In this document: positions 8,349 to 51,834 of the stretch, one piece after another
Position numbering within the stretch: position 1 is the stretch's first letter
Layout: the number at the start of each line of letters is the position of its first letter
NCBI GenBank assembly: GCA_003167255.1
Contig: PMTR01000033.1
Coordinates: 41,160-105,159 of the forward strand
DNA: 64,000 nucleotides
Reading direction: 5' to 3'
From: Bryobacterales bacterium
GTDB lineage: Bacteria > Acidobacteriota > Terriglobia > Bryobacterales > Bryobacteraceae
Notes under the pieces: generated by a model
Databases searched by the model: none
What the model was told of the DNA's origin: nothing
The model's input: the letters and a program-made list of their open reading frames with translations, nothing else
Translations under genes and position numbers: made by a program

Positions 8349-8407
8349 CGAAAGACGGAGCCAACAGGCTGAATCCCGGCCCGGACCGGCCACTCGCCAA
8401 GGCGTGT

Positions 8408-18716: not shown

Positions 18717-18876
18717 CGCATTGCCTGTAGCGAGATCGTACACGTTGTACGGAATTCGGACAGGCAAGTCCGTAAACTGGCCGGTTGGTGTTTGGGAGGG
18801 CTCGCTTCCAGCAGGCGGATGGATGGCCTCGCGCGGGGCGCGCTGCGGTGGTTACCAACGTGCTATCCCCGCGCTG

Positions 18877-19848: not shown

Positions 19849-19859
19849 AGGAGCATCCA

Positions 19860-22073: not shown

Positions 22074-22089
22074 AGCAAAGGAGAAATCA

Positions 22090-22503
22090 ATGCATCGAAC
22101 TATCCATATCGTTCTCGCCGCGGCTTGCGTGGCGTCTTGTGGGGTGATGGTCGTTCGGGCCGGAGACGTCGGCCCGCGAATCATCGACGTCACCGCCGAC
22201 GCGGACAACCGGTTCAAGATCCCGAAAATGAAGGATCCGGTGATCACCATGAAGGCGAACGAGGTGGCGGTCCTGCGGATCACCGCGCACCGGGGCGGAG
22301 AGTGGGATGAAAAGGACGGGTCCATTCATACCTTCACGATCAATGCTTTGAAGGACCGCGGCTGGAATTTCCGTTTGAAAGAGGGGACCCAGAAATTCCC
22401 GGTAGTGGCGCCTTCCGAGCCCGGAGAGTACGTGGTGGAGTGCACGGTGAAGTGCGGCAAGGGGCACGACGATATGAAGATGAAGCTGGTGGTGACCCCG
22501 TAG
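22090..22503 (+). CDS. Secreted cupredoxin with a CuA-type ligand set
   Basis: 137 residues with a signal peptide. The copper ligands are visible: His in GSIHTFTINAL and the cluster CTVKCGKGHDDM, which has the C-x3-C-x3-H-x2-M spacing of the binuclear CuA site in cytochrome oxidase subunit II and N2O reductase, rather than the single-Cys pattern of plastocyanin-like proteins. There is no oxidase subunit nearby, so it is probably a soluble electron carrier within this module. A ribosome-binding site (aaggag) precedes the ATG. Confidence 0.82.
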   Translation: MHRTIHIVLAAACVASCGVMVVRAGDVGPRIIDVTADADNRFKIPKMKDPVITMKANEVAVLRITAHRGGEWDEKDGSIHTFTINALKDRGWNFRLKEGTQKFPVVAPSEPGEYVVECTVKCGKGHDDMKMKLVVTP

Positions 22504-22511
22504 GGGACGGC

Positions 22512-23342
22512 ATGGAAGCCACGCGGCGCGGTTTCATTCAATTTCTGGCCCGGGGCACGGGCCTGCTGTTGGTCTCCTGGGTGGTGGTAAGGACGGTGGC
22601 GGCGCATCTGTTCCACGCGAAGCTGCCTCCGCGATCCGTGGCGCCCGGGAAACAACGATGGGTGATGGTCATCGATCTGGCCAAGTGCGACGGTTGCCGG
22701 GACTGCACCAAGGCCTGCACCAAGATGCATTTCGTGCCGCCAATGCAGGAATGGATCAAGGTCTACGAGATAGCCGATAATTCGGCCGCGGGATCCTATT
22801 TCCTGCCGCGCACCTGCATGCACTGCGACAACCCGCCGTGCGTGCGCGGCTGCCCGGTAGGAGCCACCTATAAGCGCACCGACGGCATTGTCATGATGGA
22901 CCAGGAGCGCTGTATCGGCTGCCGCAACTGCATAGCCCAGTGCCCCTATTCGGCGCGGGCGTTCAACTGGTCGGAGCCGCCGCACACGCCGGAAGAACTC
23001 GCGCAGCCTTATTCGGTGGAGCACAACTACCCGCACCGCAAGGGAGTCGTCGAGAAGTGCATTCTGTGCCCGGAAATGCTGCGCATGGGCATGCTCCCCG
23101 GCTGCGCGGAACACTGCACCATGGGGGCCATTTACTTCGGGGACGAATTCGAGGATGCCGTCACCAACAGCAAGGGCGACACGGTCCAGTTCTCCAGGAT
23201 CGCGGCCAAGGGCGCGGGATTCCGGCTCATGGAAGAACTCGGCACGGAGCCGCGCATCTACTACCTGCCGCCGGTCAACCGCAAGTATCCTTCGCCCACG
23301 GAAAAACACCAGCACGACGCCGACATGGCGAACCCCGCCTAG
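22512..23342 (+). CDS. Four-cluster ferredoxin-like subunit (NrfC/PsrB/DmsB type)
   Basis: 276 residues from ATG 22512. The N-terminus TRRGFIQFLARGTGLLLVSW resembles a Tat signal or membrane anchor. Four Cys sets are visible: CDGCRDCTKAC, CMHCDNPPCVRGCP, CIGCRNCIAQCP and CILCPEMLRMG...CAEHC, enough for four [4Fe-4S] clusters. Such subunits pass electrons between an NrfD-type quinone protein and a catalytic or cytochrome partner. It sits 8 bp after the cupredoxin gene and 9 bp before the NrfD gene. No molybdopterin catalytic subunit is encoded here. Confidence 0.9.
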   Translation: MEATRRGFIQFLARGTGLLLVSWVVVRTVAAHLFHAKLPPRSVAPGKQRWVMVIDLAKCDGCRDCTKACTKMHFVPPMQEWIKVYEIADNSAAGSYFLPRTCMHCDNPPCVRGCPVGATYKRTDGIVMMDQERCIGCRNCIAQCPYSARAFNWSEPPHTPEELAQPYSVEHNYPHRKGVVEKCILCPEMLRMGMLPGCAEHCTMGAIYFGDEFEDAVTNSKGDTVQFSRIAAKGAGFRLMEELGTEPRIYYLPPVNRKYPSPTEKHQHDADMANPA

Positions 23343-23351
23343 GGAGGCAAT

Positions 23352-25397
23352 GTGAACCAACGAGAGAATAACCTGATGCAGACGCTGGACATGTCCAACC
23401 CGAAGTTTCGGGCGTGGGTGGGGCTGCTCGGGGCGGTCATTCTATGGGGCGCCTTCGCATACAGCCTGCAGTTGCGCCATGGCCTGGCGGAGACCGGGAT
23501 GCGCGACCAGATTTCCTGGGGCCTGTACATTTCGAACTTCGTTTTCTTTATCGGGATCAGCCATGCAGGCACGCTGATATCCGCCATTCTCCGCGTCACC
23601 GACGCGGATTGGCGGCGGCCCATCACGAGGATGGCGGAAGGCATCACGGTGGTGGCCCTCTGCATCGGAGGCACCATGGTGCTGATCGATCTCGGGCGGC
23701 CCGACCGTGCGCTGAACCTGTTCCGCTACCCGCGGATCCAATCGCCCATTGTCTGGGATGTGCTTTCCGTCAGCACCTACCTCAGCGGGTGCCTGATCTA
23801 CTTCTACCTGCCGTTAATGCCGGACCTGGCGATCCTCGCCGAGGAGGCCAACCTGGGCAGCTTCCGGCGCCGCGTCTACCAGCTTCTTTCGCTGGGGTGG
23901 ACGGGAACGCCCGGCGAGTGGCGCCTCCTGGAGAAGGCGATTTCGGTGACGGCGGTGATGATTATTCCGCTGGCTATTTCGGTCCACACGGTGGTGTCGT
24001 GGATCTTCGCCATGACCCTGCGGCCCGGTTGGGACAGCAGCATATTTGGGCCGTATTTCGTGGTGGGAGCCATCTATTCGGGCGCCGCCGCGGTGGTGCT
24101 GGCGATGTGCATCCTGCGGAGTGTGCTGCACCTGGAGGAATACCTCGAGCCAGTGCACTTCCGCAACCTGGGGCTGCTGCTGCTCTCGTTCTCGCTGCTG
24201 TACCTGTATTTCAACGTGAACGAATACCTGACGGTGGCTTACAAGTTTCAGGGCGGCGAGAAACTGCTGCTCGACCGGCTGTTCAGCGGCGACTACGCGC
24301 CGTACTTCTGGACAGTTCAGGTGGTGGGAGTGCTTCTGCCGATGCTGCTGATGATGGCGGTGCTCGGCCCCAAGCGCTACCGGCATTTCACCGTGCCGGG
24401 ATTGGGTCTGGCTTCGTTCCTGGCGATTGCCGGCGCGTGGGCCAAGCGCTACCTCATCGTCGTGCCGACGCTTTCCAGCCCCTTCCTGCCCATCCAGCGG
24501 GTTCCGGAGAGTTGGGGCCACTATACTCCGACCTGGATTGAATGGTCGATCACCGCGGCCGCCTTTGCCGCGTTTCTGCTTCTTTACACCCTGCTCGTGA
24601 AGTTTTTCCCGGTGGTGTCGGTGTGGGAGACCCGGCATATGGAGCCGCCCGCCGAAGAGATGGAGACCGTATCCGGCTTCGGTCCGCGGGCGTGGGGTTC
24701 CGCGGCGCGGCTTTCGCTGATATTAGTGGGCATTTTGCTGGTTGGCGCGACGCTGGCTCGTGCGGAAGAGAAACCGGTGGCGGGGCCGACGACGCTCTCG
24801 GTGACCTGGAGCAACCTTCCATCGGCGGCAGTCCCGAAGATGGAGGACGCACGCACAGATCCGGCGCCGGGCACGCCGTGGCAAATCGGCGCTTTTGCCG
24901 GAGGCATGCCGCACTTCTGGAACTCGCCCGGCAATGCGGCCAAGAGCCCCGGAGTCTACCCCGTCGTCTCGGTGGCCGCGCAGTTGAAGGACGTAAAAGG
25001 CCAGGCGCTCTCCTTCCAGCCGGTGAAGTTCAAGCTGAAGACGTCGCTCGGGTGGCTGGATTTCGGCGCGCGGCCTACCGACGATGAGGGCAAAGTGGCG
25101 TTGGTGGTCCGCGATCGCCGTTACGGGAGCTATCCCGTCTCGGTAGCCTACCCCGGAGACGGCGTGCACCAGCCCAGCCTCGGCGAGACCATCGTCGAGT
25201 TCGGCCTGCGTCCCGCGGCGGCGCTGCCGGAAGGCGGCGTGCTGACATCGCCGACTTTCACTCCCGAGATCGGCCTGCCATTTGTGCTTTTCTACGGCTC
25301 CATGTGGTGCGTCTTCGCGTACTCGCTGGGGTACCTCGTAATTTGGAAGATGCGCGCGGCGCGGCAGGCAATCGCGCTGAAGCCGGACACCCAGTGA
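23352..25397 (+). CDS. NrfD/PsrC-type quinone protein with a C-terminal Ig-like domain
   Basis: 681 residues, GTG start with gggagg correctly placed. Residues about 20-430 carry the NrfD pattern of eight or more transmembrane helices, including WGLYISNFVFFIGISHAGTL and YLYFNVNEYLTVAYKFQGGE. Unusually, a further helix (LSLILVGILLVGATLARA) leads to a periplasmic beta-rich domain (about 470-640: LKDVKGQALSFQPVKFKLKT, YPVSVAYPGDGVHQPSLGET) like an Ig/bacterial sandwich domain, and a last helix closes the protein. Family members without this tail are about 400 residues. The tail may dock the cupredoxin or a cytochrome. Confidence 0.88.
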   Translation: MNQRENNLMQTLDMSNPKFRAWVGLLGAVILWGAFAYSLQLRHGLAETGMRDQISWGLYISNFVFFIGISHAGTLISAILRVTDADWRRPITRMAEGITVVALCIGGTMVLIDLGRPDRALNLFRYPRIQSPIVWDVLSVSTYLSGCLIYFYLPLMPDLAILAEEANLGSFRRRVYQLLSLGWTGTPGEWRLLEKAISVTAVMIIPLAISVHTVVSWIFAMTLRPGWDSSIFGPYFVVGAIYSGAAAVVLAMCILRSVLHLEEYLEPVHFRNLGLLLLSFSLLYLYFNVNEYLTVAYKFQGGEKLLLDRLFSGDYAPYFWTVQVVGVLLPMLLMMAVLGPKRYRHFTVPGLGLASFLAIAGAWAKRYLIVVPTLSSPFLPIQRVPESWGHYTPTWIEWSITAAAFAAFLLLYTLLVKFFPVVSVWETRHMEPPAEEMETVSGFGPRAWGSAARLSLILVGILLVGATLARAEEKPVAGPTTLSVTWSNLPSAAVPKMEDARTDPAPGTPWQIGAFAGGMPHFWNSPGNAAKSPGVYPVVSVAAQLKDVKGQALSFQPVKFKLKTSLGWLDFGARPTDDEGKVALVVRDRRYGSYPVSVAYPGDGVHQPSLGETIVEFGLRPAAALPEGGVLTSPTFTPEIGLPFVLFYGSMWCVFAYSLGYLVIWKMRAARQAIALKPDTQ

Positions 25398-30105: not shown

Positions 30106-30981
30106 TTGATCGACCGCAGGGAAGCGCCCGCGCAGGCGGTTCTGCCGGAGGAATTGAGAAGCGCTTACGGTGGCGACCTGTGGTTCCCGCCGGCAAGTCC
30201 CGAATGGCCCTATGTGATCGGCAACTTCGTGAGCACTGTTGACGGGGTGGTGAGCTACGAAATCGCCGGCCAATCCGGAGGAGGCGATATCAGCAGATTC
30301 GACCCGTCGGATCGTTTCATTATGGGGCTCCTCCGGGCGTCGGCGGACGCCGTCATGATGGGATCCGGTACGCTTCATGAAACCGCCCCCGGGCATTTAT
30401 TCGTTGCCGGCCGGGCATACCCGGAAGCCCGCGACCTGTATGCGCGCTACCGCTCGGAGACCCTTCGGAAGAAGGCGCCGCCGCTCCATGTTGTGGTTAG
30501 CGGAAGCGGCAGGATGGACCTCACCAGAGCCGTTTTTCGGACACCCGGAATCCGAACTTTGATTGTCACCACGAAAGCCGGTGGAGACCTCCTCGCAGCC
30601 AGCGGCGCGGCATCGCTGGTCTCCACTGAGGTTCGGCAGCTCGAAGGTCCCATCATTGCGCCAGCGGCCATTCTCGAACTTCTGCGTGCCGAGTTCGACG
30701 TATCGCTGCTTCTCCATGAAGGCGGCCCCACCCTCTTCGGTAAATTCCTGGCCGATGGCTGCGTCGACGAACTCTTCCTCACCATAGCCTCTCAAGTGGC
30801 CGGCCGAAACACGCCGCCACCCCGCCCGGGATTCATCGCAGGCGTGGGGTTTACTCCCGAAACAGCGCCCTGGCTGGACCTTGTCAGCGTGAAGCAGCAA
30901 GGCAACCACCTGTACCTGCGTTACAGCACCGCCAGTGAGTCAGGTAAACCACGTTCTGAACGTGAGGGGCCGGTCGTCTGA
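30106..30981 (+). CDS. RibD C-terminal/dihydrofolate-reductase-like reductase
   Basis: About 291 residues from TTG 30106. The start is uncertain: the best ribosome-binding site (ggagg at 30070) points to an ATC (30082) in the same frame, with plausible coding sequence between. The RibD_C fold is indicated by YVIGNFVSTVDGVVSYEIAG, FIMGLLRASADAVMMGSGTL, a nucleotide-binding stretch and LLLHEGGPTLFGKFLADGCV followed by DELFLTI. RibD-type enzymes reduce a ribosylamino-pyrimidine in riboflavin synthesis, but stand-alone relatives often have other NADPH-dependent roles. It converges on and overlaps the last gene of the RiPP-like operon by 42 bp. Confidence 0.75.
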   Translation: MIDRREAPAQAVLPEELRSAYGGDLWFPPASPEWPYVIGNFVSTVDGVVSYEIAGQSGGGDISRFDPSDRFIMGLLRASADAVMMGSGTLHETAPGHLFVAGRAYPEARDLYARYRSETLRKKAPPLHVVVSGSGRMDLTRAVFRTPGIRTLIVTTKAGGDLLAASGAASLVSTEVRQLEGPIIAPAAILELLRAEFDVSLLLHEGGPTLFGKFLADGCVDELFLTIASQVAGRNTPPPRPGFIAGVGFTPETAPWLDLVSVKQQGNHLYLRYSTASESGKPRSEREGPVV

Positions 30982-32403
30982 GCGGACCATTACGAATGAC
31001 GTGACGCGCCGGCCCGCGACCCACACGGTGGACACACTGGGAAATACGTCCGGCGGTTCGCTGGCGGACAGGAACTCGGGAAGGGAGGGGAGTCCGGGTG
31101 GGGTGGCAAAGTGTTCGGTCATGGCAAAGAACGCTTTGGCGCCGGGCCGCAGCACGTCGTAAACGGCCTTGAGGAAATTCAGCTTCTCGGGAAGGTATTG
31201 AAGAAGCTGAACGCAGATCACTAATGCAGCGGAGCCGCTGGCCAGTGGGAGCTGGTCGGCCGTACCGATGATTGCGCCCGGGGCATCGCCTCCCGGATTG
31301 AGGTCGAGACCCACCAACTGATGTTGCGGCCACCCGCTCGCAATATCGCGAAGCGCGGCGCCGCTACCACAGCCGATGTCAACGACGCGCAACCTGCCTT
31401 TCTGCGACAGAGTCGAAATGAGCTCTCGGAAGTGAGCCGGACCAACCTCCGCTTCTATCGACCATTCACCTGAGCGGGCGTGCAGCCGGCGGCTGCGAAC
31501 CATCGGGCTGGTCTCGACGGCGCCGCAGGAAGCAGCGCGGCTAAACGTCGTGCGCAACAGGAAATCGGCAGCATCGAGCGCCCGCCTGAGAAGGTCGATT
31601 CGAGCGCTCGCGGTCTGCCGGGAATTCACATATTCGGCCAGGAGGGTTGCCCGGAGGGACGGCGGAAGCGGCTCGGAGAATTGACCAGGGAAGCTGAATA
31701 GAGTCGCAAGGTTGGCGATTGGCACGTCCCAAAAAGACGCCATTTCCAGATCGACGAGCACCGGATGGCCATCCCGAAACAGGAAGTGTTCCCGTTTGAT
31801 ATCGGAAATAACCAGCATGGGGGAGTTTGCCACAGAGGCGGCCAGCGCTTCCGCGGCTTCCAGAACCTTGCCACGACGGTCTTCCGCGCCGCCGAACGTC
31901 AGCAGGATTTCCGCCGCGAGGCGGGCTGGCGAAGGAAAGCCAGTGGCCGTCAAGTCCGGGAAGAGGGAGTGGGCTTCTTCCTGCTTCATCTGACAGGCAT
32001 CGTGAAGGCGGGCCAGATAACGAACGATGGCGATCAATTCGGCCTCATCGGGTCTGGCCGGCGCCTCCGCCCGGCCAAGATCGCAATAGAGAATGGCGCC
32101 GCGTTCGGGATCTGACGACAGAATCGCCGGAGACTCGATGTGGCGGCGTTCCAGATATTCGTGAATCCGCACGCACAAGCTCGCCACCTGAGGCGAGGCA
32201 ACCTTCAGGATCAAGTGCGTATTGCCGCTGCAAACGCGATAAGTTTGACTCACATCCGACAGCGCCAGGGGCTCGACGGTCATGCCGGCAGCGGCCAACC
32301 CGCATCGAGCCAGGTACTCGCGCGCCCGGCGCTCCAGGCACGCCACTTCCACGGATGAGAGCAGTATGCGCTTCACGCGCGCTTGGGGAATCAGGGACAA
32401 CAT
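30940..32403 (-). CDS. Kinase-like/SAM-methyltransferase fusion protein
   Basis: 487 residues from ATG 32403. Residues about 1-290 have an aminoglycoside-phosphotransferase-like fold: NTHLILKVASPQ (ATP-side Lys), VISDIKREHFLFRDGHPVLV (catalytic-loop Asp; the usual HxD is SD and the Asn is His), VDLEMAS (metal-binding Asp). Residues about 330-487 are a class I methyltransferase with the SAM motif RVVDIGCGSGA and later LVGLDLN, VICVQLLQYLPE. Last gene of the minus-strand operon, overlapping the SPASM radical SAM gene by 13 bp. It may modify the peptide product or a small group attached to it; the kinase half may be degenerate. Confidence 0.7.
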   Translation of the reverse strand: MLSLIPQARVKRILLSSVEVACLERRAREYLARCGLAAAGMTVEPLALSDVSQTYRVCSGNTHLILKVASPQVASLCVRIHEYLERRHIESPAILSSDPERGAILYCDLGRAEAPARPDEAELIAIVRYLARLHDACQMKQEEAHSLFPDLTATGFPSPARLAAEILLTFGGAEDRRGKVLEAAEALAASVANSPMLVISDIKREHFLFRDGHPVLVDLEMASFWDVPIANLATLFSFPGQFSEPLPPSLRATLLAEYVNSRQTASARIDLLRRALDAADFLLRTTFSRAASCGAVETSPMVRSRRLHARSGEWSIEAEVGPAHFRELISTLSQKGRLRVVDIGCGSGAALRDIASGWPQHQLVGLDLNPGGDAPGAIIGTADQLPLASGSAALVICVQLLQYLPEKLNFLKAVYDVLRPGAKAFFAMTEHFATPPGLPSLPEFLSASEPPDVFPSVSTVWVAGRRVTSFVMVRSDDRPLTFRTWFT

Positions 32404-33719
32404 GCAACACCCGCGAAACGGCCGAGTTCTTCTTCGATAAGCCCGGCGAGCGCCGGGCAATCCGGGTTGGCCATTCGGCGGAGCTGCAGCGCCAGCACAG
32501 ACGCACGTTCAGCGACTGGCAGACGCGAAATGCGGGATCGGGCATCGCCGATGCTGGACACTTCGCCGCACAAGGCATCGAAGAAAGAAGCCGCGACGCC
32601 TGCCCAGTCGAGCTGAAGCCCTTGTAAGAGCCGCCGCGTCCGGACGGCATCGTGAAAGAGGCCAAACAAGGTCTGGTTCAGAACTTGAATTGGAAGGGCA
32701 GCCTCGTACTCGGATTCGTCAAGACGCTTCGCCTCATATCCGCGTGCGAGCCAGCCTTCGGGCATTCCGGGACAAACTTCCGCGGCCGCGCAGTTCCCGC
32801 ATTCGCCGGTCTTCGTACGGCGGAATCTCGACGGATAGACGTCCTCCAGAGTGTGCCGCTCTGAAATGGGGTGGGCGAAATCGGTGAAGTAGCAATCGAC
32901 CATAAAATTTGGAAGGCCGAAGGCGTTTTCCGGGAACGTTCCCGAAATGGCGTGTTGGATGCACGCTGGCAAGTTGAAGTCACGGAGAACGGCGGGAGCA
33001 CTGCGCCGGGCCAGCAGAAACCGGGCGCGTTCGAACTGCGAGCGGACTCGCGGAAGATCCGCCGCCGGCGGCAGCCAATCGGTATTGTCTTCTCCGTGAA
33101 TCCGAAATCGATTCTCTTTGTTTGCAGCACCGTATTCCCGGTGAACGGGCAGATAGTACAGACAATACAGCGGAGCTTGCCGTGAAGCCTCGCGCGTGCG
33201 CAGAATGAAAGCGGCGATGTCAGCCAGGCGATGGTAGTTCAACCGGTTGATTGAAGTGTTCGTGAACACGGCGGGAAAGAAGCGAAAGATGTTGCCCAGG
33301 CCTTGTTCCAGATCTTCGAAATGCGTGGCGGAGCCTGAGATGGCGGTGTGCATCGCAGGGTCGCAGGCGTGGATGGATACGTTGGCCTTGTCGAACAGGG
33401 CCCCGAGCGCCCGGGCCAGGCCCGAATCGGCGAGGTAGACGCCCATGGTGTCGAGAACCAGAGAGGACCACCAGATCCGCTTGGTTCGCAGGTACTCGAT
33501 CAGTTCGACTGCATCCTTGCGCTGTGTGAACTCGCCGCCCGACATTTCGAGCTCCACGCGGCGGCCCTCAAACATCTCTTCGATCCGATCGAAGGTCTCC
33601 TTCACCTGCGCCGTCGGCATGTAGCTGATGTTCCGGGGAACATGCAGCACGTGGCAGAATCCGCACTGGTGAGCGCACGCATACAAGGACTTGATAACGA
33701 TGTTGACCGTGGCCGTCAC
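32391..33719 (-). CDS. Radical SAM protein with SPASM-like Cys tail
   Basis: 442 residues from a GTG at 33719 that overlaps the YcaO stop by 4 bp. The radical SAM cluster motif is C15-AHQ-C19-GF-C22. Downstream are typical TIM-barrel segments (ELEMSGGEFTQ, DTMGVYLAD, SIHACDP). Near the C-terminus CGNCAAAEVCPGMPEG supplies extra Cys for auxiliary Fe-S binding as in SPASM/twitch enzymes. Such enzymes cross-link or otherwise activate residues of ribosomal peptides. It lies in an operon with YcaO, PqqD and two other radical SAM genes. Confidence 0.82.
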   Translation of the reverse strand: MTATVNIVIKSLYACAHQCGFCHVLHVPRNISYMPTAQVKETFDRIEEMFEGRRVELEMSGGEFTQRKDAVELIEYLRTKRIWWSSLVLDTMGVYLADSGLARALGALFDKANVSIHACDPAMHTAISGSATHFEDLEQGLGNIFRFFPAVFTNTSINRLNYHRLADIAAFILRTREASRQAPLYCLYYLPVHREYGAANKENRFRIHGEDNTDWLPPAADLPRVRSQFERARFLLARRSAPAVLRDFNLPACIQHAISGTFPENAFGLPNFMVDCYFTDFAHPISERHTLEDVYPSRFRRTKTGECGNCAAAEVCPGMPEGWLARGYEAKRLDESEYEAALPIQVLNQTLFGLFHDAVRTRRLLQGLQLDWAGVAASFFDALCGEVSSIGDARSRISRLPVAERASVLALQLRRMANPDCPALAGLIEEELGRFAGVACCP

Positions 33720-34975
33720 TGGTCCCGTTCTCCGGCGGCGGCCTGGGCCTCGTGGACCGCGGCGAGCGCGCGCGCGCCAACCCGGTACTCGTCGACGGCT
33801 ACGCATTCCAGGCCGGGCACAAGGACGCGGACGACACTAACGTCCAGATCGCTTTTCGTCAGATCCGCGACCAGAATCCGGCGCATATCGAAGCAGGCGA
33901 GCCGTTCTACCATCCAGAGGATGTCATCGCGGATGTCGCGATGACGGCGGCCGGAGGTCTTCAGCGACGACCTGGTGAAAGCCGGCCTGGTCAGGCTCCA
34001 CTCCGTGCCGGTCACCTTACCGTTGCCTGCGCGGCGCCGCCAATACGCGATGTCCTCGCGGGACCCCTGGATGTCTGCTGCCCGGCTCTGCGCGGCCTCG
34101 GTGATAGCGCGGGTGAGGGCGACTTCCGGATCGGGGTGAGCGCCCATGCCTTCGTGCGCCAGCACGCCGTGCGCAACCTGTTCGAAGCTGGCTGCGTAAT
34201 ACGCGGGCACCTTCAATTCGGAAGCAATGTCGCGAAGGAACAGGCGGACGCCGGCGCGATCGAAACTGTCAATCAAACGGCGGACGCCGGCTGGGGCATC
34301 GGCGAGATCGACTCCAGGGTAGCGATCGCCCATCCCGTGGCCTACTCTCACCCAACACAAAGACCACGAGTCACGCTCAATAAGCTCGGCAAGACCATGG
34401 CAGATGGCTTCCTCCGGGATGTTACCGGAAGCCAGGCCGTTCGTGCTGCCGCGCAGAATCATCAGAGGCCCGGCCGGGATGTATGGATGGAAGACGGCGT
34501 TGGCCGGAACCCAACAGGACTCGCCTGTCATGAGTTCTCGTGCCGGGTACCATTCGATGGGACGATCGGGCCGGTAGGGCGTCCATACAGGGAGGTTCAG
34601 TTCGCTGGGGTCGAGGGCGTTTTCGGAGCACGCAAGGCGCTCATATGATTCGACTCGTCCGGGCAACTCGCCCGGTTCGGCGCAGCAGTATTCGATCGCC
34701 TCCATGATCGCTCCGGCGCGCGCCTGCGAGCGGGAGGCGCCCTTCCCGCATGTGATGGAGACACTATTCTTGTGGGCGGACGGCCTTACGCAGGAGTATA
34801 CGGGAATGCCGATGCGGTCCAGACCGGTGATGTCCGCGATGCGGGTGACCCCGATTCTGGAAAGAAGCGGCTCCATTCGCCGGCAGGTGGCTCTGGCGCT
34901 GACCGTCCGGTGAACGCCTGTGCCTCCGATCTTCGGCGCACTTCGGACAAGCGGCGCGAATGCAGGCGCATTCAC
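33716..34975 (-). CDS. YcaO-family peptide cyclodehydratase/thioamidase
   Basis: 419 residues. YcaO proteins use ATP to activate peptide backbone amides, making azolines or, with TfuA, thioamides. ATP-site residues are seen in SQARAGAIMEAIEYCCAEPG, AICHGLAELIERDSW and a later DPEVALTRAITEAAQSRAAD. The C-terminus lacks the PxPxP tail of azoline-forming YcaO proteins. A tfuA-type gene is encoded 4 kb away in the same cluster, so thioamidation is the better guess. It overlaps both neighbours by 4 bp. Confidence 0.88.
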   Translation of the reverse strand: MNAPAFAPLVRSAPKIGGTGVHRTVSARATCRRMEPLLSRIGVTRIADITGLDRIGIPVYSCVRPSAHKNSVSITCGKGASRSQARAGAIMEAIEYCCAEPGELPGRVESYERLACSENALDPSELNLPVWTPYRPDRPIEWYPARELMTGESCWVPANAVFHPYIPAGPLMILRGSTNGLASGNIPEEAICHGLAELIERDSWSLCWVRVGHGMGDRYPGVDLADAPAGVRRLIDSFDRAGVRLFLRDIASELKVPAYYAASFEQVAHGVLAHEGMGAHPDPEVALTRAITEAAQSRAADIQGSREDIAYWRRRAGNGKVTGTEWSLTRPAFTRSSLKTSGRRHRDIRDDILWMVERLACFDMRRILVADLTKSDLDVSVVRVLVPGLECVAVDEYRVGARALAAVHEAQAAAGERDQ

Positions 34976-36648
34976 TGGACGCGCTCCCGCTCCCGGCTGG
35001 CGGCCCGCAATTCCGGTATCAATGCCGCGAGAGGCGCGGGGACCTCGGAAGCGTCCAGCGCGACGCGGCCGTCGTACGGCTGGGCCGGGGGGGCCTTGCG
35101 GCCGTGGATGGACAGGCCTTCAATGTAGGATCTCATCAGGTGGAACCTGGCGCGGCGCTCTTCCCGCGGCAATCCGTCCGTCCAGCACAGGGCGATGCGC
35201 CGCACGTGCGGTTCGAGGGCGGAAATCGCATCGGGGACCTCGATCTCACGAGGAAGGATGCGAACTCCGAAGCGGTCCCGATTGACGAAAAGGGACGAGT
35301 GCGGGTCCACTCGGGCCTGCGAAACCATGAAACGGACGGCGGCTCCGGTCTTGGCCGCTGCGTTGCGCAGGCGTTCGGCAAGACGCGAACTGCGTTTCAT
35401 CGTGCTCTCGTATTCTCCGAGCGTCTCGCCCGGATAGTTCGAGACCAGATTCAGCCCTAGCGATATTCCCGCATCCACGGCCATGGCAAGCGTTTCTTCC
35501 GTTTCCGCAACCGAGGTATGCCGGTCCATGCGGGCGAGGGTCCGCCCGTCCAGCGACTCGACGCCGAAATTCACCTTTTCAAAGCCGGCCGCGCGCATGG
35601 AATGGAGCAGCGGCCGCGGCAGCCGCCGCGGTTCGCAGTGAGCGAAGACGACCTGCGGTTTGAACGAAAGCCGTTGCATTCCGGCGGCCAGTTCGGCGAG
35701 CCATGGCGGCGACACGTTCAGAGTGCTGTCACAGAAGAAGAGGCGGGACGTGCCGAAGCGCTGGCGTTGTGCATCGATCTCGCCTAAAACGGATTCGCTT
35801 TCGCGAAGCCGGTAATTCTTGGGGTAGATCGATTCGTAGCAGTAGGCGCAGCGGCGGGCACACCAGCGCGACCCCCCCACGCTGACCGCGTCGTGGAAGT
35901 CGCGGTTGGTGTCGCTGTAGTAACGCAGCGTGGCGCCCGGAAATGGAAGACCCGAAAAGTCCGGCCAGGGCAGGCTATCGAGATTGGTTGGCGCGGAGGG
36001 GCCGGGAATACGGATTAGGCGGCCGCTGTCGATGCGAACCAGTCCAGGTGTCGCAAGTGAGTCCACGGGCCTTCCGCATTCCAATGCGTCCATGAGCGGG
36101 ATGAGGGTCGTCTCCGCCTCTCCGGGAAGCAGGGCGTCGGCCCAGTTAGCGCGCAACACCAGTTCCTGAATCTCGGCGTAGATGGTTCCCCGGCCGCCAA
36201 GAATGCGCGGAACCTGCGGTGCGCGTTCGTGGAACAATACACTCGCCCAGAGCACTATGAAGAGATTGCTGACCAGGGCCGGCAGGAGCACAACCTCGGG
36301 ACTGAGCTGCGCCATGGCTTCGGCCCAGGTTTCAACGTGGGGCCGCAGGGATGAAAGAAGGTCGCGGTCTGCGTCGCTCAACTGCCGCTGGACGGCTTCA
36401 TCCTGCGGCCACAGCGCCCCGAACAAGAGCTCCGGGCGGTGAAGGAACTGGACTTGCTCCGCCCAGACCTCCCCGTACACTTCGGTTTCGTCCTGCAGGC
36501 GCAAGGAGAGATCCTCGTCGTTCAGGCGAAGAATGTGCTCGAAATCGGCGAAGATCGCCTCGTGGCCTTCCGCGCGCAACAGCGCCGCCAGATAGCCGGC
36601 GCCCAGGCGGTGGTTGTATACCGGGAACAACGGCACCAGTATTCGCAT
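34972..36648 (-). CDS. B12-binding-type radical SAM enzyme (second)
   Basis: 558 residues. The N-terminal region (MRILVPLFPVYNHRLGAGYL, then LLPALVSNLFIVLWASVLFH) resembles a cobalamin-binding domain of the radical SAM B12 class. The SAM cluster is in SRWCARRCAYCYES, and GVESLDGRTLARMDRHTS is a typical barrel motif. Enzymes of this class methylate unactivated carbons or form rings. The His of a classic DxHxxG B12 motif is not obvious, so cobalamin binding is inferred. It overlaps the first radical SAM gene by 1 bp and YcaO by 4 bp. Confidence 0.8.
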   Translation of the reverse strand: MRILVPLFPVYNHRLGAGYLAALLRAEGHEAIFADFEHILRLNDEDLSLRLQDETEVYGEVWAEQVQFLHRPELLFGALWPQDEAVQRQLSDADRDLLSSLRPHVETWAEAMAQLSPEVVLLPALVSNLFIVLWASVLFHERAPQVPRILGGRGTIYAEIQELVLRANWADALLPGEAETTLIPLMDALECGRPVDSLATPGLVRIDSGRLIRIPGPSAPTNLDSLPWPDFSGLPFPGATLRYYSDTNRDFHDAVSVGGSRWCARRCAYCYESIYPKNYRLRESESVLGEIDAQRQRFGTSRLFFCDSTLNVSPPWLAELAAGMQRLSFKPQVVFAHCEPRRLPRPLLHSMRAAGFEKVNFGVESLDGRTLARMDRHTSVAETEETLAMAVDAGISLGLNLVSNYPGETLGEYESTMKRSSRLAERLRNAAAKTGAAVRFMVSQARVDPHSSLFVNRDRFGVRILPREIEVPDAISALEPHVRRIALCWTDGLPREERRARFHLMRSYIEGLSIHGRKAPPAQPYDGRVALDASEVPAPLAALIPELRAASRERERVQ

Positions 36649-38030
36649 TACGAACTCCCGGCACAGCCCGTCTCGGTTGCCGAGAGGCTGTCGATTCGAA
36701 TATCCGAGAGGTTGAGCCCCAACCGCTTCCCGATTCGGCTCTTTTCGTCCACCATCCCATCCGAGAAGTGATAGAAGCCGGAGAAGAGGCTGGGGAACGC
36801 CGCGATCGTTTCCGCGACTTCGGCCAGATTCGCCTCGCGTCCGGGCGCGATGATGGTCGAGTAGACATCGGGCCGGAAGGTCAGGCGGTCGCGGAACTCT
36901 TCGTAGAGCGCGGTTCCAGGCAGCGGTGTGACCAGCGAATAAAACACATTAGCACCGCAGTGGTTCAGATACTGTCCGAAGGCGAGCGTCTGGTGAAAAT
37001 CGCTCATGGTTTCGAACGGGAAGCCCCACATGAGCGGCGTGTGGGTGTACATGCCCAGGCGCGCGGATTGTCGCACCGCGTCCGCCGTTTGCTCGAACGG
37101 GATCGCCTTGTTCACGCGCGCCAGTACCGCGGGTGAGCCGGACTCAACACCGTAGAACACGTACTGACAGCCCGCGGCGGCCATCCGGTCGAGCAACTCC
37201 GAATCGACACGGTCGATCCGGGTTGTGCAGCCCCACGAGGCAGGGACGCCTGCCGATTCAAACCGGTCGCAGAATTCGATAGTTCGTTTCCGGTTGACCG
37301 TGAACAGGTCGTCCACGAACGCAATGTGCCGGACGCCGCAGCCGCGCAGCCACTCGATTTCGGCCAGCACATTGTCCACGCTACGCGCGATGTTCTGCCG
37401 GTTCCACATGGAGACGACGTCACAATAGGTGCAGGTGTACGGGCAGCCGCGGGCATAAACCACGCCGACTACGTCATAGTCCTGGAGATTGACACGGTCG
37501 TACTCGGGAAACACAATCTGGTCCAACTCGCGCCGGCGCTCGCGGCGGGAGTTCACCGTCACAACTGAATTGGCGGCGCGCCATGCCAGCCCGGGAATCG
37601 TCCAGGCAGGCGGACTGCCCTTAGCCAGGAACCTGAGAAGATCGACGGCCGTCTCCTCGCCCTCGCCGCACACCACGAAATCGATGGCGGGGAAGGTTTC
37701 CAGCAGTTCCTTGGCTACGGCGCTTGGGCCCGGACCTCCGAAGACAATCTTGATTTCTGGTCTGCAAGCCCGGAGCTTCTCAACCGCCAGCACACCGTAT
37801 GGAAGCATACCGGCGAAGCAGGAGATGCCCACCACAGGCGCATCCGCGGTTTCAAGAAACTCCGCAATTCGATCGATGCGGAACAAATCCGGCCCACGCT
37901 CCAGGGCGTAGTCGCGGAAAACCGTGGAGAAGCCGGCATCCTCGGCCGCGGCGACGATATACAACGCGCCGAGAGGGGCCATTTTCATAGATTGACCGGC
38001 AGCCAGGTTGAAAACGGCAAAATCCGGCAT
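36648..38030 (-). CDS. B12-binding-type radical SAM enzyme (first)
   Basis: 460 residues from ATG 38030, 4 bp after the pqqD-like stop. N-terminal B12-binding-like domain (LAAGQSMKMAPLGALYIVAA, KIVFGGPGPSAVAKELLETF, FVVCGEGEETAVDLL). The radical SAM cluster is in GCPYTCTYCDV, followed by HIAFVDDLFTVNRKRTIEFC and YGVESGSPAVLARVNKAIPF. The class includes C-methyltransferases acting on ribosomal peptides and other metabolites. Two such enzymes side by side suggest two separate carbon-centred modifications. Confidence 0.83.
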   Translation of the reverse strand: MPDFAVFNLAAGQSMKMAPLGALYIVAAAEDAGFSTVFRDYALERGPDLFRIDRIAEFLETADAPVVGISCFAGMLPYGVLAVEKLRACRPEIKIVFGGPGPSAVAKELLETFPAIDFVVCGEGEETAVDLLRFLAKGSPPAWTIPGLAWRAANSVVTVNSRRERRRELDQIVFPEYDRVNLQDYDVVGVVYARGCPYTCTYCDVVSMWNRQNIARSVDNVLAEIEWLRGCGVRHIAFVDDLFTVNRKRTIEFCDRFESAGVPASWGCTTRIDRVDSELLDRMAAAGCQYVFYGVESGSPAVLARVNKAIPFEQTADAVRQSARLGMYTHTPLMWGFPFETMSDFHQTLAFGQYLNHCGANVFYSLVTPLPGTALYEEFRDRLTFRPDVYSTIIAPGREANLAEVAETIAAFPSLFSGFYHFSDGMVDEKSRIGKRLGLNLSDIRIDSLSATETGCAGSS

Positions 38031-38034
38031 TGCC

Positions 38035-38328
38035 TTAGAGTGGGGAGTCAGGCCCAACCCGATCGGGCGGAAGTACACACAGCAGACCCTGAGCCATCAT
38101 GTCGTCAAGCGCCTGGTCCACCAGCCGGTACAATTCGAGAGTGTCCCCGAAGACGCGCCCGGCGACCAATTCCCGGATGGCTTCTCGCGTGGCGCCGCTC
38201 TTGGCGGCTTCGAAAACGATTTTGGCGTCACCGTTCAGAACAAAAACTTCATCGTTGTCGAATCGGTGCACCAGAAGCTCATCGCCAATCGCGCGGTCGA
38301 GCACCTCCTCTGGAGCGGCGTATCTCAA
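38035..38328 (-). CDS. PqqD-like peptide-recognition protein
   Basis: 97 residues resembling the PqqD/RRE fold, a small winged-helix-like domain that binds the leader of a ribosomal peptide and hands it to modifying enzymes. Visible are YAAPEEVLDRAIGDELLVHR, the strand DEVFVLNGDAKIVFEAAKSG and a C-terminal helix pair (LYRLVDQALDDMMAQGLL). It sits between the candidate precursor gene (30 bp) and the first radical SAM gene (4 bp), the usual place for a recognition element. Confidence 0.82.
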   Translation of the reverse strand: MRYAAPEEVLDRAIGDELLVHRFDNDEVFVLNGDAKIVFEAAKSGATREAIRELVAGRVFGDTLELYRLVDQALDDMMAQGLLCVLPPDRVGPDSPL

Positions 38329-38358
38329 GTCGGGCCTCTAGGCTGAACTCAACGCGGC

Positions 38359-38769
38359 TCAGAACTTGCCGGCAATTCCGATGCCGACAGTTATCCCCAC
38401 CGGGCCAATGCCCCCGCCAATCGGTTTCCGGACTTTGGAAATCTGCGGATCGAACTTTATTACACCATTCTTGTTGGCAGCGGCGGCGAGGCGTTGGTCC
38501 CCCACAATCTGGAGTTGAAATGCCTTCGCGTTCTTGCTCACCGAAGAATTCACGCTTTTCGAGAGGCTGGCCATGGCCTTATGTTGCGAATCGGACAGAC
38601 GCGAAAGCATCGCGGCGGCCTGCTTGGGCGCCAACGCACCCAACTGCATGGAAATGCCTGGTAGCATCTTCTGTAAAGCCGCCTGGACCTCCTCTTCGCT
38701 TCCTTCGGCCTGCACCAGATACTGATTCGGTCCGGTGCCAAGAATCACAAGATTGCGGCTTGCAGCCAT
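38359..38769 (-). CDS. Candidate RiPP precursor-like protein with Gly-rich C-terminus
   Basis: 136 residues from ATG 38769, chosen because gaggagg lies about 9 bp upstream. It is first in the minus-strand operon. The N-terminal 100 or so residues are an ordinary soluble, Ala/Gln/Ser-rich helical stretch (LVILGTGPNQYLVQAEGSEE, VQAALQKMLPG) that could be a long leader. The last 19 residues, GGGIGPVGITVGIGIAGKF, are striking: Gly alternating with Ile/Val and no charge until the final Lys. Such a tail is a plausible core for backbone modification. I recognise no family; it could instead be an unrelated small protein. Confidence 0.6.
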   Translation of the reverse strand: MAASRNLVILGTGPNQYLVQAEGSEEEVQAALQKMLPGISMQLGALAPKQAAAMLSRLSDSQHKAMASLSKSVNSSVSKNAKAFQLQIVGDQRLAAAANKNGVIKFDPQISKVRKPIGGGIGPVGITVGIGIAGKF

Positions 38770-38820
38770 ATGTGCATACCCTCCTCGCAGCAGAATTATA
38801 TCATACAATTGAAAACTAAC

Positions 38821-38859
38821 TGCCTAAGAAAAATGCCTAAGAAACATGCCTAAAATGCA
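38821..38859. promoter_or_regulatory. Three 13-bp tandem repeats between divergent RiPP-like genes
   Basis: tgcctaagaaaaa, tgcctaagaaaca and tgcctaaaatgca follow one another exactly, in an AT-rich gap between the precursor-like gene and tfuA. The 13-bp period is compatible with an operator array. The AT-rich stretch ttatatcatacaattg (about 38797-38812) beside it is a likely promoter for the leftward operon. Confidence 0.55.
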
Positions 38860-38867
38860 AAAATGTG

Positions 38868-39563
38868 ATGAGCGCTCGACAGCGCCAAAAGGCTCCCCAT
38901 TTGGCTCGTAAACCCATTGTCTTTCTCGGGCCCAGCCTGAGGGCGGAAGAGGCAAGGGAAATCCTGGACGCCGACTATCGCCCCCCAGCCCGGCGGGGCG
39001 ACATGACCGCGGCGGCTCGCGAATCGCCGCCAGTTATCGGCCTTATTGACGGCGTATTCCTGGCGAGCTTACCCCCGTCACCCCTTGAAGTGTTGGAAGT
39101 GCTGCGAGGCGGTACGGCGGTCATGGGCGCATCGAGTCTCGGGGCCTTACGGGCCGTAGAGTTAGAATCACACGGCATGGTAGGCATCGGGAAGATCTTC
39201 GCAATGTACCGGCGAAGGCAGATCATCGCGGACGACGAAGTCGCGCTGGTCTTTTCGGGGGAGGATCTGAGACCGCTTTCGGAACCGCTGGTCAACATAC
39301 GATACGGCCTCTCCGCGGCCCGGCGCGTGGGCGTGATTGGCGCGCGGGAGCGCCAATGCCTCATTCGAATCGCTAAGGAGATTTACTTTGCCGAGCGAAC
39401 CTGGCCCCTCGTTTTTCATTCCGCGAAGAACTGTATGGATTCGGACAGATTAGAAGCGTTGGCTGCATTTATCGATCAGGGCGCCTTCGATCTGAAGAGA
39501 AAAGATGCGGTACAACTCCTCCATGCTGTGCGAAAGTTCCTCAAGGGTGAACGGCCAACGTAA
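38868..39563 (+). CDS. TfuA-family protein
   Basis: 231 residues from ATG 38868 (GTG 38865 also possible). The TfuA domain is clear: FLGPSLRAEEAREILDADYR, PPARRGDMTAA, IGLIDGVFLASLPPSPLEVL, GASSLGALRAVELESHGMVG and ADDEVALVF. TfuA works with YcaO in peptide thioamidation, supplying sulfur by acting on a sulfur carrier. The gene is divergent from the YcaO operon and overlaps the next gene by 17 bp. Confidence 0.88.
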   Translation: MSARQRQKAPHLARKPIVFLGPSLRAEEAREILDADYRPPARRGDMTAAARESPPVIGLIDGVFLASLPPSPLEVLEVLRGGTAVMGASSLGALRAVELESHGMVGIGKIFAMYRRRQIIADDEVALVFSGEDLRPLSEPLVNIRYGLSAARRVGVIGARERQCLIRIAKEIYFAERTWPLVFHSAKNCMDSDRLEALAAFIDQGAFDLKRKDAVQLLHAVRKFLKGERPT

Positions 39564-41013
39564 GCTGCGGTTTCTCATCCGCGGACAGAGTCTGCCGGAT
39601 TCGAACTGGCTCAACCAGGCACTCGCTGCTCTGGGACACGCGGTAATAGAAAGCCGCCTGACGCCCGCCGAATGCGACGTGCTGCTGGTGCACGATCCAT
39701 CCGCGGCAACTGTCCGCGAGGTGGAGGCGGCCCGCCGGACCGGCATCTTGACGATCCTGCGCTCCTGGCGCGATCCGGAGACGCTTGAAGCCGCGGGATC
39801 GTCGGCTGCGGGATACGACTGGGTCGTGACCACCGGACTTGCCGGGATGGTGAATGCTTACGCCAGCGTAGGCGCGCGGGCTGTAACGCTGTTGCCGTCG
39901 GCGCCGCCGCTGGTTTCGCCCCGGAATCCGAGGCCGCGCGATTACGACATCATTTTTGCCGGGCGATTAACGGGTCCGGAGCGCAAGCTCCGTCTGGATT
40001 TCTTGCGGAGGGCCGCCAGCAAATGGAAGGTTGCCGTGATCACCGATGATGCCGCCGCCTGGAATGGCGCTCATCCGCTGGCGGCGTCCAGGCTCGAAGA
40101 ATTCCATAGGCGCGCCCGCCTCACGCTGCATACCGATCGCATCGCGCTCAACCGGTTTGGAGTGACGCGTGGGTGCCCGGCAAGGCGCCCTTTTTTCGGT
40201 CCGGCGTTTGGGTGCGTGCTGTTGGCCGAGTTGCGTCCGTGGCTGCTCCACTGCTTCGATCCGGCTTCGGAAATGGCGGGCTTCGCTGATGAGGAACAGG
40301 CGATTTGCGAAGCGGCCGCGCTGCTTGAAGACCCGCAGCGCATGGAGAGCATTGCGGCCGCCGGCGCGGAGCGAGTACGTGCGGATCATTTGCCGGAAAG
40401 GCGGGCACGCCAACTTGTGACACTGGCGTCGGGAACCGTTCCTGCCGCGATGCAGGTGCTGGCGCTTGGACCGTGGTATCAGCAGATCGAGTTGCCGGGC
40501 GGGGAGAAAACCTGCCTGCTGGAGCATTCAAATGTGAAGCGATGGCAACGCTTGAAGCACGTGTTTCCGGATGTGCGAGGACGCAGTGTTCTCGACCTGG
40601 GGATGAATGCGGGTTTCTTCTCGCTCGAATGCGTGCGGCGCGGCAGCACGCGCGTGTGCGGCGTAGAGTGCTCGCCGCTGTCGTGCGCCCAGGCCCGGTT
40701 CGTGTTTGAGCAGTGGCGGACGAACATCGTGGAAGTTTTGGAGCGAGACATTCTGGAAGCCCCGGCGGGGCCCTTCGACGTTTGCCTGGCGCTTGCATTG
40801 CTGCACCATTTCGAGAACATAGGTCCCTTGCTGCGAATCGCGACCGAGCGTTGCCGCGAGGTGGTGCTCGAATGGGGATTGCGGGAGGGTTCGTTCTATC
40901 ACCCGGTGGAAGACGTCACGAACTGGTTCAAGCGCGCCGGGTGGAATCCGGTGGTTGTGTCGGAGGGCGTGCGGCCTATAGTTATCGCACGGGCTGACGG
41001 TCACGCCGTTTGA
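39547..41013 (+). CDS. Glycosyltransferase-like/methyltransferase fusion
   Basis: 488 residues from GTG 39547; ATG 39523 would add eight. The first 300 or so residues look like a CgeB/GT-B type glycosyltransferase (DYDIIFAGRLTGPERKLRLD; FGPAFGCVLLAELRPWLLHC; GFADEEQAICEAAALLEDPQ, with the usual C-terminal nucleotide-sugar region). From about 330 a CmoB-like class I methyltransferase follows (LGPWYQQIELPGGEKTC, SVLDLGMNAGFFSLECVRRG, then LALALLHHFENIGPLL). The gene is translationally coupled to tfuA, suggesting that the product is glycosylated and methylated, or that the GT half is a binding domain. Confidence 0.72.
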   Translation: MNGQRKLRFLIRGQSLPDSNWLNQALAALGHAVIESRLTPAECDVLLVHDPSAATVREVEAARRTGILTILRSWRDPETLEAAGSSAAGYDWVVTTGLAGMVNAYASVGARAVTLLPSAPPLVSPRNPRPRDYDIIFAGRLTGPERKLRLDFLRRAASKWKVAVITDDAAAWNGAHPLAASRLEEFHRRARLTLHTDRIALNRFGVTRGCPARRPFFGPAFGCVLLAELRPWLLHCFDPASEMAGFADEEQAICEAAALLEDPQRMESIAAAGAERVRADHLPERRARQLVTLASGTVPAAMQVLALGPWYQQIELPGGEKTCLLEHSNVKRWQRLKHVFPDVRGRSVLDLGMNAGFFSLECVRRGSTRVCGVECSPLSCAQARFVFEQWRTNIVEVLERDILEAPAGPFDVCLALALLHHFENIGPLLRIATERCREVVLEWGLREGSFYHPVEDVTNWFKRAGWNPVVVSEGVRPIVIARADGHAV

Positions 41014-47990: not shown

Positions 47991-49139
47991 CTACTCCTGA
48001 ACGCTCAGTTCCACCCAGCCCGGCAGCGTCGCCGGCCGGTTATTCAGGAACACGATCCGCCGCGTCTTGGGAAATGGCAGATTCGTCGCCAGTGCCCGGT
48101 TGTAGAGCTGGTATTGCTCCAGAATCTGCCGGTAGTCCGGGTTCGTGGCGTCCAGCCAGGCGCTCTTCGAGGTCAGGCCGCCGCCCCATCCCAGGCAGAA
48201 CAGGCAGGCGCCGTTTTCCCGCGCCTGCGCGAGACGCTTTTCCAACTCGTCGAGACTCTGATCCAGCAATCCCATGCCGGCCCAGGAGGCATACTGGCGT
48301 TGCAGCGATAGCAGGCCGCCGGCATAGACGTTGACGGCTTCGAAGATCTTGGATCGGTTGAAGCCATCGGGCCAACGCAGTGTGCGCCTCACTTCGGGCT
48401 TGAGCAGGAAGTCCTTCTCCTGCCAATCCCCTTCGAACGTGGTTCCCGGCGCGGCCATTTCGGCGAACGATGGCGTGCTCTCATCGGGGCGCGCCCCATC
48501 CACCGTGCCGCTGGGGCTCCGCTTCCATCCGAGCACAAAGCCCGGCCCGCGAGGCTGTATCGTGGAAGTGCGCAACAAATAAATCTTGAAATTCTTGGTC
48601 GCGATCGCGCCCGAATCGCCCGCGCTCAGCAGGCGCATCTTGTTCGCGCCGCCGGAACCGAGCGCGAGGTCCTCGACGATGTCCGCCGGCTTCCGCGGCA
48701 CCCGCTCACCTTTCACGCGGCCCAGCACATCCTGCAGCATGCCGTCGCGCCAGTTCGCAAAAACCATGCCGGTGCGCAGCGCGCCCTTGAGAGCTGCGCC
48801 TGGCAAGTACGGCCCGGAAGCGCCCGCGGCGAACGTGGGGATGTGCAGGCTGTCGCCCATGGCGCGATTCCAGTACGCGGAATACGCGGCGTTCTCAAAT
48901 GGAATGCGGCGGCCGGCGAAATTCTGCGCGAATCCGCCCCAGGAAGCGAAGTCCAGCTTCTCGGCGCTCTTGAGCTGCGTGAGGTAACTCTCCAGGCGCG
49001 GCCCCTTTGCCAGCAGGCGGAAGATCCGCCACTGGTCGAGCACGTTGACGTGGTCTTTCCAGACCATGTAGTCGATGGGACTGAGCTTGCGGCCATCACC
49101 CACCAGCAGCGGCGTCAGGCATGTGGCACGGTACCGCAT
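47991..49139 (-). CDS. csm5: Csm5, type III-A CRISPR RAMP protein
   Basis: 382 residues. Csm5 caps the 3' end of the crRNA in the Csm complex. RAMP features: an opening strand CLTPLLVGDGRKLSPIDYMV, HIPTFAAGASGPYLPGAALK followed by GALRTGMVF (the Gly-rich loop of RAMPs), and a C-terminal part with LFCLGWGGGLTSKSAWLD. Last gene of the minus-strand operon cas10-csm2-csm3-csm4-csm5; it starts where csm4 stops (1-bp overlap). Confidence 0.9.
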   Translation of the reverse strand: MRYRATCLTPLLVGDGRKLSPIDYMVWKDHVNVLDQWRIFRLLAKGPRLESYLTQLKSAEKLDFASWGGFAQNFAGRRIPFENAAYSAYWNRAMGDSLHIPTFAAGASGPYLPGAALKGALRTGMVFANWRDGMLQDVLGRVKGERVPRKPADIVEDLALGSGGANKMRLLSAGDSGAIATKNFKIYLLRTSTIQPRGPGFVLGWKRSPSGTVDGARPDESTPSFAEMAAPGTTFEGDWQEKDFLLKPEVRRTLRWPDGFNRSKIFEAVNVYAGGLLSLQRQYASWAGMGLLDQSLDELEKRLAQARENGACLFCLGWGGGLTSKSAWLDATNPDYRQILEQYQLYNRALATNLPFPKTRRIVFLNNRPATLPGWVELSVQE

Positions 49140-51282: not shown

Positions 51283-51285
51283 GCT

Positions 51286-51831: not shown

Positions 51832-51834
51832 GTG

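Follow-up and report, generated by a model that had tools for sequence, protein, structure and literature searches.

A YcaO-TfuA locus with three radical SAM enzymes and a candidate precursor gene in a Bryobacterales bacterium, probably for a thioamidated peptide

Proteins of the YcaO superfamily form azolines, amidine rings or thioamides, and the locus described here, found in 64,000 nucleotides of contig PMTR01000033.1 of a Bryobacterales bacterium (this whole stretch is called the window), brings a YcaO protein and TfuA together with three radical S-adenosylmethionine (SAM) enzymes, a PqqD-like protein, two fusion proteins and a candidate precursor peptide. The accessory proteins of thioviridamide, which are HopA1-like proteins and a cysteine decarboxylase, are not among the cluster genes of the window. 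As in the clusters of thioamidated ribosomally synthesised and post-translationally modified peptides (RiPPs) of the thioviridamide type and of the thiovarsolins, YcaO and TfuA are encoded in one locus with a precursor-like gene, although here ycaO and tfuA are divergent rather than adjacent. TfuA has been described as a hydrolase which, with thiocarboxylated ThiS homologues, supplies sulfide to YcaO (PMC13063428). A survey published in 2021 lists among the partners of TfuA-YcaO clusters B12 radical SAM enzymes in Bradyrhizobium and Desulforegula, SPASM radical SAM enzymes together with a stand-alone PqqD in Sphaerisporangium and others, two radical SAM enzymes in B. thailandensis and also glycosyltransferases (PMC8120280). 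Since each of these partner types is reported there from other taxa, the individual parts of the window cluster are known company of YcaO-TfuA, whereas neither the full set, with its PqqD, its two fusions and as many as three radical SAM enzymes, nor a core of this Gly/Ile-rich and Cys-free type is described in the sections of the survey consulted. The original prediction for this DNA, made from the sequence alone, held that the locus matches no RiPP class that could be named; this was overstated as far as the partner types are concerned, and what stands of it is that the full combination was found nowhere else. Another relevant system is that of ApyD, a B12 radical SAM enzyme that beta-methylates tyrosine in RiPPs with a C-terminal beta-amino-alpha-keto acid (PMC11117315).

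We propose that the locus is probably a RiPP cluster, in which a 136-residue precursor would be thioamidated by YcaO and TfuA and further modified by the radical SAM enzymes and the fusion proteins. The minus-strand genes follow the order candidate precursor, PqqD-like protein, radical SAM enzymes a and b, YcaO, radical SAM enzyme c and APH/methyltransferase fusion (Table 1). This reading is preferred because YcaO and TfuA are nearest to McrA-glycine proteins in a genome with ThiS carriers and no McrA, because the operon is coupled and the PqqD-like protein has a predicted fold resembling that of a RiPP recognition element (RRE), and because relatives in the same YcaO clade adjoin candidate precursors of a shared leader family or of NHLP type, with a Nif11-type precursor beside a further pair outside the clade. 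The likeness of the pair to McrA-glycine proteins, the lack of McrA and the relatives beside candidate precursors, together with the precursor-like first gene, favour the peptide thioamidation that had originally been predicted. All eight proteins named in that prediction were recovered at their coordinates with their domains, and the inventory had to be extended by the candidate precursor, which lies inside the same interval and had not been listed.

The YcaO protein matched PF02624 (E=2.8e-82), and TfuA matched PF07812 (E=5.4e-37), both well beyond chance, and also NF033432, with 235.2 bits, exactly the cut-off of 235.2 (235.1 or 235.3 in the six-frame search). The closest solved structure for YcaO was 6pe3 (MJ1094 of M. 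jannaschii), the cyclodehydratases TruD and LynD being also among its PDB relatives, and that for TfuA was the TfuA structure 6xp8 (E=3e-41). Moreover, YcaO keeps the conserved acidic residues, and E92, E95, E197, E200 and Q296 are invariant in alignment A1. By these matches the pair resembles the McrA-glycine thioamidation type and not a generic one. The methanogen McrA pair (TIGR03266, NF033432) provides the closest named families, and its glycine target would fit the tail of the candidate precursor. The window pair differs from it in that no McrA (PF02249) was found in the genome, where the positive controls were found, in the separate and mainly bacterial clade of its YcaO, and in being part of a multi-enzyme cluster with a putative RRE. 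Three ThiS-family matches were obtained in the genome. Neither an E1/ThiF cyclodehydratase partner nor a dehydrogenase, as would accompany azoline formation, is found among the cluster genes.

In a midpoint-rooted tree of 48 YcaO rows the window sequence was placed in the mainly bacterial clade of 13 rows (support 99/94), which contains the window, two copies from locus L177, two Actinomycetota, one Nitrososphaera and seven loci of the same class. The adjacent clade of 16 rows (100/99) is formed by methanogen, anaerobic methanotrophic (ANME) and related archaeal YcaO proteins, and the fork uniting the two clades is weak (87/46). Most YcaO proteins of Proteobacterial plasmids and of other loci of the class fell outside. 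A locus labelled Nitrosotalea (L057) was not counted as evidence for a thaumarchaeal pair; its YcaO groups with Methanosarcinales/ANME-type sequences and for this reason the contig is probably mis-binned.

Seven loci of the window's YcaO clade have, immediately 5' of YcaO in an McrA-type YcaO-TfuA pair, a small open reading frame (ORF) with a common leader of about 60 residues followed by variable hydrophobic/Gly tails. Leave-one-out profiles recovered all seven members with E 5e-13 to 3e-23, each ranking ahead of the 10,500 shuffles, and no Pfam or NCBIfam model covers the six copies scanned (those of L051, L054, L170, L171, L172 and L176). Judging from the sequences, this unnamed leader family is probably a new RiPP precursor family. 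The locus that appears to be the closest relative of the window cluster among those found is L177 (1-10148, on a 10.1-kb contig from another genome of the same class), which encodes a subtilase, a major facilitator superfamily (MFS) transporter, two YcaO proteins, TfuA, a B12 radical SAM enzyme with 37% identity to enzyme a over 410 aa and a small precursor, whose ORF resembles NHLP-type Os17/Frankia peptides (35.1 bits, below the cut-off of 40). It thus shares with the window the YcaO clade, TfuA, the B12 radical SAM enzyme and a small precursor, but it differs in its second YcaO, NHLP-type leader, subtilase and MFS protein, and counterparts of enzymes b and c, of PqqD and of the fusions are lacking from its 10.1 kb. 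The original prediction had named as a refutation that homologous radical SAM genes might belong to a separate, non-peptide pathway; for enzyme a the finding in L177 is contrary to this, the close homologue standing within a YcaO-TfuA-precursor locus. For enzyme c, 399 genomes of the class gave no homologous locus to which this refutation might apply. Outside the clade, a Nif11-type precursor scoring above the Pfam and NCBIfam cut-offs lies beside YcaO-TfuA in L165 (2534-2773, plus strand).

From radical SAM enzyme a onward the genes overlap by 1 bp (TAATG), 4 bp (GTGA), 4 bp (GTGA) and 13 bp, in agreement with the tight coupling that had been predicted, and these overlaps point to translational coupling. 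The start of enzyme c is a GTG within the GTGA overlap shared with the YcaO stop. On the plus strand, the start of the glycosyltransferase/methyltransferase fusion overlaps the end of tfuA. An extended -10 (TGATATAAT, 38795-38803) is located just 5' of the candidate precursor ORF and a ribosome site (GAGGAGGG, 38779-38786) about 10 nt before its ATG (38769). In addition, the repeat search showed that the region between the divergent promoters holds TTAGGCA three times as an exact direct repeat, 13 bp apart (38821-38853), which is a possible operator. The consensus scan of this region reported no promoter because the -35 is poor. The base composition is not unusual.

The first gene of the minus-strand operon is a Cys-free ORF of 136 residues, whose C-terminal sequence is KPIGGGIGPVGITVGIGIAGKF. 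Its 22-residue tail contains 15 G/I/V residues, with eight Gly, one Thr and neither Cys nor Ser, and this G/I/V content was equalled by none of 10,613 background 22-mers, which were drawn from ORFs with 200 codons or more in this locus and related ones. Such a tail speaks against the formation of azolines or thioethers and suits thioamidation at glycine, and the core cysteine that characterises sactipeptides and ranthipeptides is likewise lacking. No Pfam or NCBIfam family matched the candidate. The AlphaFold single-sequence model, which is of low confidence, places strands and helices in residues 6-101 and leaves the tail (102-137) disordered, as might be expected of a leader and a core. The family scans, the phylum search and AlphaFold were run on a form of 137 residues (38362-38772), longer by one residue at the N-terminus, and the results were unaffected.

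For the PqqD-like protein, PF05402 reached 14.1 bits, under the Pfam cut-off of 23.4, and the original label is carried rather by the predicted fold. The five best PDB matches given by Foldseek to its model (pLDDT 55) were lasso-peptide RRE/leader complexes; the lasso B1 matches 5v1u, 6jx3 and 5v1v had probabilities up to 1.00 with E 0.045 at best for this low-confidence model, and the PqqD structure 3g2b ranked lower. With E-values of 0.045 or worse the fold is taken as support, and not as proof, that the protein is a stand-alone winged-helix RRE.

Each of the three radical SAM proteins has one CxxxCxxC motif. Enzyme a was matched in Pfam by B12-binding (69 bits, E=3.3e-19) and Radical_SAM (71 bits), and its best NCBIfam match, NF050148 ApyD with 187 bits (below the cut-off of 750), suggests a distant relative of this beta-carbon methyltransferase, although the MNIO, P450 and Tyr-rich core of the ApyD system have no counterpart in the window. 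Enzyme b was matched by Radical_SAM (57.8 bits) and best by B12-radical-SAM families such as TIGR03975 rSAM_ocin_1 (E=1.6e-23, below cut-off), and may be a distant relative of the RiPP radical SAM C-methyltransferases. Two B12-type enzymes had been predicted; the B12-binding domain is clear in enzyme a and weak, below cut-off, in enzyme b (E=0.0012). Enzyme c was matched by Radical_SAM (E=2.6e-10) and ends in a SPASM-like Cx2Cx5C tail (C336, C339, C345), which agrees with its earlier SPASM-type label, whereas no SPASM domain was called by Pfam or NCBIfam. The APH/methyltransferase fusion combines PF01636 (E=4.1e-9, residues 68-278) with PF08241 (E=1.3e-10, residues 360-445). Its APH-like domain keeps catalytic-type aspartates (ISD, DLE) and lacks the canonical HGD, so kinase activity is only putative. 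The glycosyltransferase fusion combines PF13524 (E=8.5e-16, 166-305) with PF13649 (E=6e-8, 362-438).

Table 1. Features of the candidate RiPP locus in the window and leader-family ORFs of related loci
Feature	Position	Strand	Basis or context
APH-type kinase-like + SAM methyltransferase fusion	30940..32403 (ORF to 32460)	-	Pfam domains
Radical SAM enzyme c (CAHQCGFC), SPASM-like tail	32391..33719 (ORF to 33806)	-	Pfam and motifs
YcaO, resembling McrA-glycine thioamidation type	33716..34975	-	Pfam, NCBIfam, structure match, tree
Radical SAM enzyme b, B12-type (CARRCAYC)	34972..36648	-	Pfam, NCBIfam
Cobalamin-binding radical SAM enzyme a (CPYTCTYC)	36648..38030 (ORF to 38078)	-	Pfam, NCBIfam
PqqD-like putative stand-alone leader-recognition (RRE) protein, 97 aa	38035..38328	-	Sub-cut-off Pfam, predicted fold
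Candidate precursor peptide, 136 aa	38359..38769	-	Operon position, ribosome site, tail composition
Divergent control region	38779..38853	-	Sequence reading and repeat search
TfuA, resembling McrA-glycine thioamidation type, divergent from operon	38865..39563	+	NCBIfam, Pfam
Glycosyltransferase + SAM methyltransferase fusion	39505..41013	+	Pfam
Leader-family ORF, L051	11612-11911	-	Directly upstream of YcaO-TfuA
Leader-family ORF, L054	8264-8536	+	Directly upstream of YcaO-TfuA
Leader-family ORF, L167	about 8080-8370	+	Directly upstream of YcaO-TfuA
Leader-family ORF, L170	11615-11932	-	Directly upstream of YcaO-TfuA
Leader-family ORF, L171	11848-12144	-	Directly upstream of YcaO-TfuA
Leader-family ORF, L172	11674-11943	-	Directly upstream of YcaO-TfuA
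Leader-family ORF, L176	8229-8492	+	Directly upstream of YcaO-TfuA

In the proposed pathway the PqqD-like protein would bind the precursor leader and present the precursor to the enzymes. TfuA would free sulfide from a thiocarboxylated ThiS-type carrier, and YcaO would activate a backbone amide with ATP so that sulfide replaces the oxygen and a thioamide is formed, for which one or several glycines in the Gly-rich tail are the likeliest sites. The cobalamin-type enzymes a and b could add methyl groups to unactivated carbons of Ile, Val or Gly in the core, and enzyme c might introduce another C-H-based change such as a carbon-carbon or carbon-heteroatom link or an epimerisation; a thioether is not expected from a Cys-free precursor. 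The two fusions, kinase-like/methyltransferase and glycosyltransferase/methyltransferase, would tailor the peptide late, and leader removal and export would be left to the general cell machinery. The product would most likely be a thioamidated, C-methylated peptide, any bioactivity of which is hypothetical.

Several results weigh against this proposal. The best NCBIfam match of YcaO is TIGR03266 with 308.4 bits, under the cut-off of 365, and the function given to YcaO is for this reason extrapolated. The codon score of the precursor ORF is positive and yet is not the best of the six frames, the better-scoring frame being interrupted by stops. No credible homologue of the precursor was found in 396 genomes of the phylum; the lone match (locus L160, E 0.003) was rejected, as it appears antisense to an unrelated gene. 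The likeness of the precursor leader to the shared leader family is weak (3.8 bits, 15th among 2,001; hhalign P 0.018), and membership of that family was rejected as unproven. Moreover, the complete gene set was found in no other genome, and no transporter or protease was seen among the cluster genes and the scanned flanking ORFs, the flank scan not being exhaustive. This last absence had also been predicted and holds within that scope. One C39 peptidase gene is present elsewhere in the genome, outside the cluster.

The locus might instead consist of two adjacent units, YcaO-TfuA for peptide or protein modification and a separate small-molecule pathway of radical SAM, kinase and glycosyltransferase proteins, as none of the YcaO-TfuA loci opened holds a relative of enzyme c or of either fusion, and small-molecule pathways commonly include APH and glycosyltransferase domains. 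We consider this unlikely, given that ycaO overlaps a radical SAM gene by 4 bp on either side, that the best homologue of enzyme a adjoins YcaO, TfuA and a RiPP precursor in L177, and that the leader-recognition protein belongs to the same operon. Slightly less probable is that the same precursor is turned into a RiPP in which YcaO installs a Thr-derived azoline or an amidine ring and not a thioamide. The superfamily performs all three chemistries and TruD and LynD are among the structural relatives, but against it stand the absence of a ThiF/E1 partner or azoline dehydrogenase from the cluster, the tail with a single Thr and no Cys or Ser, and the presence of a TfuA exactly at the McrA-glycine cut-off.

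An equally improbable explanation is a protein-modification system, in which the pair thioamidates a cellular protein such as methyl-coenzyme M reductase or uL16 and the ORF taken here as precursor is an ordinary small protein. The substrate of the closest characterised YcaO and TfuA is indeed a folded protein, McrA, another YcaO target is uL16 (PMC13063428), and the candidate is long for a RiPP precursor. However, the genome has no McrA, and the cluster does not have the distribution of a housekeeping modifier, since the other genome of the genus and almost the whole class lack it. The PqqD-like protein and the array of radical SAM enzymes also resemble those of RiPP loci, and relatives adjoin precursor-like ORFs. 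The orphan distribution and the lack of a transporter or protease could also be those of a decayed or silent cluster from which no product is made, but all frames are intact and coupled, the catalytic motifs are kept and the extended -10 and ribosome site precede the precursor, so that this is very improbable.

Among 399 genomes of the class, McrA-type TfuA was found in 20, enzyme c had no match at E<=1e-15 and the glycosyltransferase fusion none at E<=1e-25. For enzyme b, 257 genomes of the order gave generic matches (22-33%, best other 29%) and nothing closely related, and nothing was obtained with it in the viral scan. A YcaO of the McrA-glycine type is missing from the one further genome searched in the genus (82% complete). 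Plasmid searches with enzyme a and YcaO gave relatives and no shared cluster in the loci opened, and a genome-contig scan with a five-row YcaO alignment returned 80 loci, nearly all of them methanogen McrA pairs without the other cluster genes. As no other genome has all the genes together, co-occurrence is not demonstrable for enzyme c or the fusions. The cluster may be a patchily inherited or transferred cassette.

Elsewhere in the window, positions 47991-53292 (minus strand) hold the type III-A CRISPR genes for Csm5, Csm4, a RAMP protein (probably Csm3) and Cas10. A multihaem cytochrome, an MtrB/PioB outer-membrane porin and NrfD are encoded at 18646-25397 (plus strand), and by their sequences look like an extracellular electron-transfer conduit. 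A carboxypeptidase-regulatory TonB receptor is also encoded in the window; together with a Soli_TIGR03435 protein present in a genome of the same class, it points to Acidobacteriota.

A more tentative suggestion, which we hold as doubtful, is that the RiPP cluster proposed here represents a distinct class, in which glycine thioamides and several radical SAM C-H changes would be combined on a Gly/Ile-rich, Cys-free core. Such a class would have been built by a bacterial branch of McrA-type YcaO-TfuA that passed from maintaining proteins to making peptide products, or the other way round, and the fusions for phospho- and glyco-transfer would add changes so far unseen in thioamidated peptides. 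The number of natural peptides known to carry thioamides is small, and in the literature consulted none with chemically shown radical SAM modifications was found. If the proposal is true, the locus would be a compact gene set for a peptide with backbone thioamides and C-H methylation. Moreover, the bacterial clade beside the McrA enzymes and its conserved leader family make the kinship between protein-modifying and peptide-modifying pairs testable.

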